Below, one piece after another: positions 8,275-10,490 of a stretch of 33,974 nt of DNA (within the stretch, counting starts at the first letter, position 1; every line of letters starts with the position of its first letter). A program made the position numbers and the translations under genes. The notes under the pieces were generated by a model. That model was given only the letters and a program-made list of their open reading frames with translations. It was not told the origin of the DNA and did no database searches. Source of the DNA: a virus; the IMG/VR virus record IMGVR_UViG_3300028025_003948, positions 1 to 33,974 of that record, one strand, 5' to 3'.

Positions 8275-8916
8275 TCAGTTCTCCCCTTTAGTCTGCGAAG
8301 CAGAAAACTTTGTTAGATAAGCCCACCAGCGTTCAAGCCTGACCTTCTCGGTGTAAGCAGAACTACATTCATAACTAGAAGCAAAAGCCTGAAGAAGCTC
8401 AAGCACAAGCAAAGGCGGGAGAGAAGAAACATCACAAGATCGCAAATGTAAAACACCAAACTTACTAGCATCAAAAACAGTTATTTCTGGCTTAACTTTT
8501 ATTTCTGTTTCATTACTGTTTAGGGGGGTGATATTGCGGGGGTATTCTTCTTGAAATTCAGGGGGTATTTCACTTGAGTTTCGGGGTGAGTTTCGGGGTG
8601 AGATTAGGGGGGTATTATTCGGGTCAAGATCTAAACCTGGAAGCAAAATATAGTAGCGGTTAGCCCTTCTAGACATATCAGAACCCTTATCCCAAGTTAG
8701 TTCCCGAAGCTCTCTAAGCCTTTTCAAGCAGCGATCAACAGTATCAACATTGCAACGCATAAGGTTTGCAAGCGTTTCCTTAGTGGCATACATGCCCGCA
8801 GGTTGCCTATATTTGACTAAAGCAAGAAGCAAAAGTAAATCGTTTCCTGTAGCTTGACTATGCTTCCAAACAACTTCATAATCTTCATATTTGAATCTTT
8901 TATTCAATTTGTCCAT
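8275..8916 (-). CDS. Replication initiator-like winged-helix protein
   Basis: 213 aa. Residues 20-90 look like a winged helix-turn-helix (GNDLLLLLALVKY, ATKETLANLMRC, TVDRCLKRLREL), resembling lambda O and other phage initiators. A low-complexity linker at about 103-135 contains a repeated SPRN and is encoded by iteron-like repeats. The C-terminal helical part may contact the helicase encoded next. The start ATG 8916 lacks a clear Shine-Dalgarno. Strong by context, moderate by sequence. Confidence 0.7.
   Translation of the reverse strand: MDKLNKRFKYEDYEVVWKHSQATGNDLLLLLALVKYRQPAGMYATKETLANLMRCNVDTVDRCLKRLRELRELTWDKGSDMSRRANRYYILLPGLDLDPNNTPLISPRNSPRNSSEIPPEFQEEYPRNITPLNSNETEIKVKPEITVFDASKFGVLHLRSCDVSSLPPLLVLELLQAFASSYECSSAYTEKVRLERWWAYLTKFSASQTKGEN
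8523..8619 (-). repeat. Iteron-like repeats in the initiator gene (candidate origin)
   Basis: Within the initiator gene, six G-rich blocks on the plus strand (GGGGGGTGATATT, GGGGGTATT twice, GGGGTGAG, GGGGTGAGATT, GGGGGGTATTATT) have G-runs ending near 8528, 8542, 8565, 8586, 8598 and 8612. Two are a perfect 12-bp tandem, GAGTTTCGGGGT. Lambda carries its origin iterons inside gene O in the same way. Origin function is inference. Confidence 0.55.
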
Positions 8917-8926
8917 TTTCTGTTTT

Positions 8927-9370
8927 TTATTGTTTTCTAAAAATAACTATTGCCGAAGGAAAAGGGGCGGCATCCCCATTAGAACCAGGTTTCACAAACT
9001 TCAACCTTCCCCGAATAAATCGGATCTCCGAAGCCTTAGCAGCGTAATCATGCCACCAAGCTGTATCTGTTCTTGCAGGAACTAGACAAACCACAGTAGC
9101 CCCCCCCCCGCCAGACCATGCTTCTAGAGCTTTAGCCATCCAAAGTTTGATATCTCTACCATAAGGGGGATTACACCAAACAACACCATCCCAAACTTGA
9201 GTTAAACCATTCTTTTCTTTATCAAAATAGTTTTCAACCTTAAAATTATGTTCATTTGCACAAACATCAACAGTAAAACCAAATTCTTCATTCAGTTCAT
9301 CAAATAGCTTCTGCGGAGTTCCCCAATCATCAGCGGTGCTTGTATACCAAGAATCATTTATCTTAGTCAT
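8927..9370 (-). CDS. Phage Dam-type adenine-N6 methyltransferase
   Basis: 147 aa of the phage N6-adenine methyltransferase family. An N-terminal DDWGTPQKLFDELNEEFGF block is followed by DVCAN, the catalytic NPPYGR at 67-72, then VVCLVPARTDTAWWHDY and EIRFIRGRLKF. It transfers methyl from SAM to adenine. The gene contains a run of ten G (plus-strand C run 9100-9109) encoding GGGG at 87-90, in a loop between conserved segments; loss or gain of one base would truncate the enzyme. It starts directly after the stop of the C5 methyltransferase gene. Confidence 0.88.
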   Translation of the reverse strand: MTKINDSWYTSTADDWGTPQKLFDELNEEFGFTVDVCANEHNFKVENYFDKEKNGLTQVWDGVVWCNPPYGRDIKLWMAKALEAWSGGGGATVVCLVPARTDTAWWHDYAAKASEIRFIRGRLKFVKPGSNGDAAPFPSAIVIFRKQ

Positions 9371-9935
9371 TTATTTTTTTCCTAGTCTTTCTAGAACTTC
9401 ATCATCAATCAGCAACTCTAATGCTAATTTTGCTTGTTGCGGAACAACTCCATTACCTAAAGCCTTGAGTTGATCGTTACGCTTCAAACCAAGTTCTGGA
9501 TCAGTAACCCAACCTTCAGGCAATCCCATCATCCATTCAACAAATTCAGCGGCTAATCTGTGAGTTCCTTCTTTTCCATCTGGTTTTGTAGGTTCAGGGG
9601 CTTTTCTACCTAAGATTTCTTCCCATCTTCTAATTGCGGGTTCAAACTTACCCCAAGACATCCTTACAGCAACGCCCAAACTTACACCGGGCATTCCCCG
9701 ATATTCTCCAGAATCAGCTTTAGATCTTCTATCTAAATAATCTTCGATAGGTTCATCATGATTACGAATGTGAGCAACTGAAGGAGTAGGAAGAAGATTT
9801 CTTTCTTGCCTAGTAACAGGGAAACCTTGACTTGCAACAAGATCCATTACTTGATCTCTAACTGCGACAGTATTGCCACGCTTCAACGCTTCCGCTTCAC
9901 CTAAAGCCCCGCCAGAACCTTCACTAGCCTTTGGG
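9371..9935 (-). CDS. dcm: C5 cytosine methyltransferase, C-terminal part (other frame)
   Basis: The second half of a DNA cytosine-C5 methyltransferase, continuing in the +1 frame from the gene at 9924-10490. It carries the target-recognition region and the motif IX/X end (KRNDQLKALGNGVVPQQA). This frame is open up to 10147, but the segment before about 9935 is only the shadow of the N-terminal half. If one base of the CCCC run (9933-9936) is skipped, the reading becomes IIAFPKASEGSGG and a 372-aa enzyme of normal length results. Without frameshifting it has no obvious start of its own. Confidence 0.7.
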
Positions 9936-10490
9936 GAACGCAATAATAAACATTCTGAATCTGTTGTGAGCTGCTCCTGTATCGGAAGCCCGAATACCTG
10001 TCCATTTCGCATCATACCCGAGATCATCCAGCGATCCAAGAACGGCCTGGATTGCTGTAAAAACAGGTCTTGCTCCAAGTTCATCCAATATTTCAGTTGA
10101 GTATTCCATTCCGTTATCGGCTTTTGCTGTAAGTAATCCACGCACATTTTCTATAACTACCAATCTTGGTCTAATAATTTCTATAGCTTTAGCAAACTCT
10201 AGCCAAAGCCCTGATCTTGTTCCTTCTTGAAGTCCAGCCCTTTTCCCCGCTAAAGATAAATCTTGGCAAGGGAAGCCGCCAGTTAGAACATCTACTTGCT
10301 CAATACTTGAAAAATCAACTTTAGTTACATCTCGATAATTAGGAACACCTGGAAAGTGTTTTTCAAGAATTTTAGATGGAGCATCTTCCCATTCACAATG
10401 CCATGCCATTTCAGCATCAAGAAATTCCAAAACCGCTAAATCTAAGCCGCCATAACCAGAGAAAAGACTTCCAACTCTTAGCTTACTCAT
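9924..10490 (-). CDS. dcm: C5 cytosine methyltransferase, N-terminal part
   Basis: 188 aa with motif I FSGYGGLDLA (10-19), motif IV with catalytic PCQ (74-76), motif VI ENV (114-116) and motif VIII NRFRMF (176-181). It stops at TAG 9924 right after AFPKG, before the recognition domain and motif X, so alone it should be inactive. The missing part follows in the +1 frame. Explanations: a real single-base insertion, a sequencing error in CCCC, or programmed +1 slippage at TTC-CCC-AAA. The ATG at 10490 overlaps the upstream zinc-finger gene. Confidence 0.8.
   Translation of the reverse strand: MSKLRVGSLFSGYGGLDLAVLEFLDAEMAWHCEWEDAPSKILEKHFPGVPNYRDVTKVDFSSIEQVDVLTGGFPCQDLSLAGKRAGLQEGTRSGLWLEFAKAIEIIRPRLVVIENVRGLLTAKADNGMEYSTEILDELGARPVFTAIQAVLGSLDDLGYDAKWTGIRASDTGAAHNRFRMFIIAFPKG

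Follow-up and report, generated by a model that had tools for sequence, protein, structure and literature searches.

The gene and its G10 tract

A viral DNA of 33,974 nucleotides (IMG/VR record IMGVR_UViG_3300028025_003948; this whole stretch is called the window) raises the question of whether a run of ten G inside a small DNA methyltransferase gene acts as a switch. The original prediction, made from the letters alone, held that the run is a phase-variable site. The elements of the gene are listed below.

8927..9370, minus strand: gene for a Dam-type DNA N6-adenine methyltransferase of 147 aa, in the ON state in this assembly (PF05869, E 1.5e-31; AlphaFold2 model)
9161..9172, minus strand: NPPY catalytic motif, residues 67-70, upstream of the tract; invariant among 37 aligned relatives
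9100..9109, minus strand: G10 tract, proposed slippage site; residues 88-90 and the first base of A91
9077..9094, minus strand: VVCLVP strand, residues 93-98, the first conserved element past the tract, absent when OFF (alignment; strand 92-98 in the model)

Assignment of the protein to the phage Dam family is based on a PF05869 profile match over residues 11-145, which scores 109.8 bits against a curated cut-off of 28.1. Sequence search found no solved structure for this protein. The AlphaFold2 model (pLDDT 83, pTM 0.81) retrieved remote adenosine N6 methyltransferases in a fold search and, weakly, the Dam of E. coli, as a class I methyltransferase fold would. In this model helix 74-86, which comes after the catalytic NPPY, is followed by strand 92-98, and the tract encodes the turn that joins them. 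The GGGG stretch thus sits between NPPY and VVCLVP, where it had been placed from the sequence. The glycine preceding ATVVCLVP is nearly invariant among the aligned relatives, and at this turn the window protein is two residues longer than nearly all of them.

Reading of the window sequence confirms the tract: positions 9100-9109 are exactly ten in-frame G when read on the minus strand, although the length of a homopolymer in a contig consensus may be off by one. The surrounding codons are GGC GGG GGG GGG GCT (G87 G88 G89 G90 A91), and the tract is therefore composed of three GGG codons and the first base of the alanine codon. Of the 669 glycine codons in the window 91 are GGG, fewer than for any other, and with the codon usage of the window three in a row would arise through codon choice with p ~0.0025. 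The claim that the tract stands out from AT-rich DNA also holds: the window is 40% G+C and G10 is its longest homopolymer, with the next G or C run reaching at most 6 and A or T runs at most 7. As at a contingency locus, the homopolymer lies inside an open reading frame and well above the background (G10 against 6 for the next G or C run).

The Dam-type gene is directly preceded by a C5 methyltransferase gene (9371-10490, minus strand), which consists of two overlapping reading frames.

9924..10490, minus strand: C5 cytosine methyltransferase, N-terminal ORF (phrog_363, E 9e-62; same split in relatives)
9371..10147, minus strand: C5 methyltransferase, C-terminal ORF, its stop abutting the Dam ATG (phrog_1008, E 5e-50)

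The two ORFs are in different frames. Because the same split is found in many relatives, it looks conserved, as would suit either two subunits or a programmed frameshift; M.AquI is a two-subunit C5 methyltransferase. The C-terminal ORF of the window has no long tract. Elsewhere, the replication-initiation gene (8275-8916, minus strand) contains C-rich short repeats (CACCCCGAAACT) at 8520-8615 and two C6 runs on its coding strand.

Effect of tract length on the reading frame

The open reading frame was recomputed for tract lengths of 6 to 15. Lengths 7, 10 and 13 keep the frame and give proteins of 146-148 aa. Lengths 6, 8, 9, 11, 12, 14 and 15 shift the frame and give products of 94-108 aa that end soon after the tract (95 aa for G9 and 107 aa for G11). 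These off-length products retain NPPY and are without VVCLVPARTDT and all later sequence. A change in length hence both shifts the frame and shortens the product, as expected of a contingency locus.

Recurrence of the tract among relatives

Comparison of tract lengths among related phages, proposed with the original prediction as a check, found tracts of G7-11 at the same loop, with near-identical contigs in opposite ON and OFF states (next section). Among the best 80 IMG/VR relatives, G8-G10 occupies the same turn in L003, L011, L013, L024, L025, L027 and L068; the nearest of these to the window is L003, at ~80% protein identity. The close relatives L004, L007, L008 and L250 are without the tract, and L004-L010 code the turn with mixed codons such as GAA AAC GGC. 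Mixed codons in this loop had been named beforehand as an observation that would speak against a switch; some relatives do have them, and we take this as gain and loss of the tract only.

A frame-blind DNA pattern (G7 or longer shortly before VVCLxPA codons) was used to scan IMG/VR, and 53 contigs carry such a run at the same helix-strand turn. Tract length is 7-11 in all except L094, whose G37 run (L094:30-125) lies with G-rich junk at the contig end and was set aside as an assembly artefact. Among prokaryote genome contigs (~85,000 species) only two have the tract pattern, both from MAGs, and at the scanned pattern the trait is rare in this genome set. These two contigs are L244 (Spirochaetales, G10, off frame) and L245 (Akkermansiaceae). 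A scan for the exact flanks of the window's own locus with a tract of different length gave no match, and a DnaB-based search for near copies of the window phage with Dam yielded two Dam genes in new loci, both tractless.

Whether the frame depends on the tract was assessed with NPPYG codons located 60-120 nt upstream of V-V-x-L-x-P codons in any frame. After exact duplicates were dropped, 189 distinct Dam genes remained. All 138 genes whose longest run is 6 or shorter are in frame. Among the 51 with a run of at least 7, 36 (71%) are in frame and 15 are off frame, so that in-frame alleles exceed the one third expected. Tract length is bimodal: in contigs found by the downstream motif alone, it is 2-5 in 106 of 112 and at least 8 in the other 6. 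Likewise, among the Dam genes runs of 2-5 are common, 6 and 7 are rare, and 8-11 are common within the tract carriers. In the loop interval G alone goes beyond 7, the limit for runs of A, C and T, and elsewhere in the same contigs the background of G or C runs of 8 or longer is ~1 per 100 kb.

The recurrence was also traced on a phylogeny computed from 166 Dam proteins with the loop removed. On this tree, built from few columns and with many weak forks, the tract label changes 19 times; at least 7 of the changes are forced by well-supported (starred) branches, with gains and losses not separable.

Length polymorphism and intact off-frame alleles

Direct evidence for length change between close relatives, a further mark of a contingency locus, comes from pairs of homologous contigs. 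Across 2,881 aligned bp, L101 (G8, ON) and L106 (G7, OFF) are set apart by a single mismatch and a single gap, and the gap is inside the tract. L103 (G10, OFF) and L131 (G9, ON) differ over 1,752 bp by 8 mismatches and one gap. A more distant pair, L097 (G9, ON) and L100 (G8, OFF), shares 96.6% identity over 1 kb. A second Dam tract site is located in the turn before APFPSA, where the nearly identical contigs L034 (at 3558), L035 (at 5121) and L048 (at 6367) have G7, G7 and G10, respectively, with no other difference in the part of the gene that was displayed.

The off-frame genes are otherwise intact. All 15 keep the conserved open 3' half, one of them ended by the contig edge. Downstream of the tract, dN/dS has a median of 0.112 in ON-ON, 0.085 in ON-OFF and 0.08 in OFF-OFF pairs (six of the last kind). 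Because the 3' halves are open and conserved and dN/dS downstream stays near 0.1, the OFF state appears to be recent or reversible rather than decay. The excess of in-frame alleles, together with a dN/dS of ~0.1 even in OFF alleles, argues that the Dam genes are retained. In a separate contig (L118:1103-3156) a G8 in Dam accompanies a G8 in a C5 methyltransferase; its Dam ORF is without the normal 5' part.

Tracts in other phage methyltransferases

The fetched loci (~2.6 Mb) contain 76 distinct G or C runs of 8 or longer: 46 in Dam, a number that partly reflects the choice of loci for their Dam tracts, 23 in DNA methyltransferases of other kinds and 7 outside both groups. Outside Dam, therefore, 23 of 30 runs fall in other DNA methyltransferases, which make up ~3% of the fetched DNA (an underestimate, as they were recognized by homology to seeds from tract-bearing genes). 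The families of part of these non-Dam methyltransferases were confirmed by Pfam PF00145 and PHROGs. The same concentration is seen in 56 new loci fetched through DnaB and chosen for neither tract nor methylase, in which all 8 G or C runs of 8 or longer are in methyltransferase ORFs; 6 of the 8 are in homologues of the C5 gene that immediately precedes Dam in the window.

Homologues of the C5 C-terminal part carry G8-G10 in L013, L014, L269, L272, L276, L278, L293 and L295. These tracts occur at several places, often immediately before LMPTP segments, and L014 has three of them. A DPPH-type methyltransferase near Dam (ORF beginning MKLILDPASSMRSFYF) carries a C tract, eight long in L095 and L119 and nine long in L096. 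The reading past its tract differs between C8 and C9, and the C9 version fits a phage methyltransferase family to the end.

Among uncultivated phages, DNA methyltransferases (Dam-type, C5-type and others) are probably contingency genes as a class, in which polyG or polyC tracts would have been gained repeatedly in turns. Combinatorial methylation states within one population would then hedge against whatever restriction systems the next host may have.

Alternative explanations

The alternative that has to be weighed most seriously is a neutral hotspot: the turn tolerates glycine insertions, the gene is dispensable, and runs grow and shrink by slippage with no benefit from switching. The turn does accept changes in length, many close relatives lack the tract, and phages with a related DnaB often have no Dam. 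Genes under no constraint should, however, be in frame in about a third of cases and should not hold a dN/dS of ~0.1 in their OFF alleles; the 36 of 51 observed in frame point instead to genes that are kept. The tract label also changes repeatedly on the tree, and turns in other genes should be affected too, whereas methyltransferases hold most of the tracts (outside Dam, 23 of 30 within ~3% of the DNA; in the DnaB-fetched loci, 8 of 8). We consider a neutral origin unlikely. Long homopolymers can also induce slippage during expression, so that RNA polymerase or the ribosome could slip on the tract in a programmed manner and set a fixed ratio of full-length to truncated product, with DNA length variation being secondary. 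Such slippage would account for off-length alleles that persist undecayed, but a fixed ratio would favor one conserved length rather than the 7-11 observed, with none in many orthologues, and this reading is very unlikely.

Homopolymers are error-prone, and the G37 run of L094 is obviously artefactual; miscalls in sequencing or assembly might then have produced the tract or its length differences. Errors would not be expected to leave 71% of the long-tract genes in frame, nor to place the tract at the same codon in dozens of independent samples with differing flanks while G or C runs of 8 or longer stay so scarce in the same contigs, and an artefact is accordingly highly improbable. The least probable of the readings is an ordinary glycine-rich loop that uses G-rich codons by chance and does not switch. 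The near-invariant glycine before ATVVCLVP would indeed seed a short G run, but the bimodal lengths, the rarity of GGG among the glycine codons of the window and the length polymorphism seen directly in the on/off pairs of homologues all speak against it.

A model for the proposed switch

The phase-variable reading in the original prediction is supported by the comparison of homologues, with its on/off pairs, its off-frame genes found only with long tracts, and its OFF genes otherwise intact. The tract, its recurrence, its length polymorphism between near-identical contigs and the intact 3' halves of off-frame alleles can all be read in the assembled sequences, and from the homologues we judge it very likely that the tract of the window is a slippage-prone switch. 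In the proposed model, G10 would be a hypermutable contingency site in a phage Dam-type adenine methyltransferase. Slipped-strand mispairing while the tract is copied would add or remove one G. Lengths of 7, 10 and 13 would give the full enzyme, as the glycine-rich turn should tolerate the insertions, and other lengths would shift the frame just past NPPY and leave a presumably dead fragment of ~94-108 aa. Phages that methylate (ON) and phages that do not (OFF) would in this way coexist in one population, and each state could revert to the other. The likely benefit is bet-hedging against host defences, either GATC-type restriction, which cuts sites that are unmodified, or methyl-dependent restriction, which cuts those that are modified; we lean slightly towards hedging against restriction as the advantage of switching.

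The terminase of the window is closest to that of the Pontimonas salivibrio phage phiPsal1 (57%), in which no Dam-type gene is annotated. This terminase match makes it plausible that the host is an aquatic actinobacterium. To our knowledge, most Actinobacteria are without MutS/MutL mismatch repair, a condition that would favor slippage. GATC occurs 155 times in the window against 189 expected, a mild deficit, and, like CTAG and AGCT, is not strongly avoided. Strongly avoided are GTAC (2 seen of 61 expected), GCGC (2 of 86) and ACGT (0 of 18), and also CCGG, TCGA and GGCC; these tetranucleotides are perhaps a footprint of host restriction. The contrast with GATC is compatible with protection of GATC by the Dam of the window, although it does not establish it; GATC as the putative target is taken from the family name.

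Switching of this kind would explain how a phage methylase that is intact in one genome can appear broken in a near-identical relative, and how these genes come to be annotated as hypothetical. It also predicts that one clonal stock would plate variably on restricting hosts.

Comparison with known systems

Within PF05869, the phage Dam proteins of Paenibacillus phage Lily, Brevibacillus phage Abouo and the lactococcal 936 phages share the family and motifs with the window protein at 51-61% identity. Unlike in the window, the turn is free of a G tract in Lily and in most of the PF05869 members sampled. Phage nd12 (OR777946.1) has a Dam-type gene, its CDS annotated as hypothetical, with the tract at the same site as in the window; the deposited allele is a G9, off frame and thus OFF, compared to the G10 and ON state of the window.

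In the literature searched, which is thin on subscription journals, no account of phase variation in a DNA methyltransferase encoded by a phage was found. PolyG phase variation is described for Campylobacter phages, where the switched product is a receptor-binding protein (Sorensen et al. 2021, Cell Rep 35:109214, as described in PMC11868660 and PMC8540345). As those accounts summarize it, hypermutable in-frame G tracts give stochastic ON and OFF members, a likeness to what is proposed here. The differences are that the Campylobacter phages switch a receptor-binding protein and infect a host that is itself rich in G tracts (PMC11868660, PMC8540345), whereas in the window and its homologues the gene encodes a DNA methyltransferase, and the phages are unrelated ones from the environment.

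That bacteria phase-vary their restriction-modification genes is textbook knowledge, and the phages appear to mirror this strategy by switching at random a modification that may guard their own genome. Bacterial DNA methyltransferases are phase-variable in, for example, Neisseria, Helicobacter and Campylobacter, and switching by slippage in a simple repeat is common to these enzymes and to the switch proposed for the window. In the bacteria the restriction-modification gene is chromosomal and acts on the cell that carries it, whereas the Dam-type enzyme of the window, encoded by a phage and without a visible partner nuclease, would mark the DNA of the phage, and that of its host, during infection.
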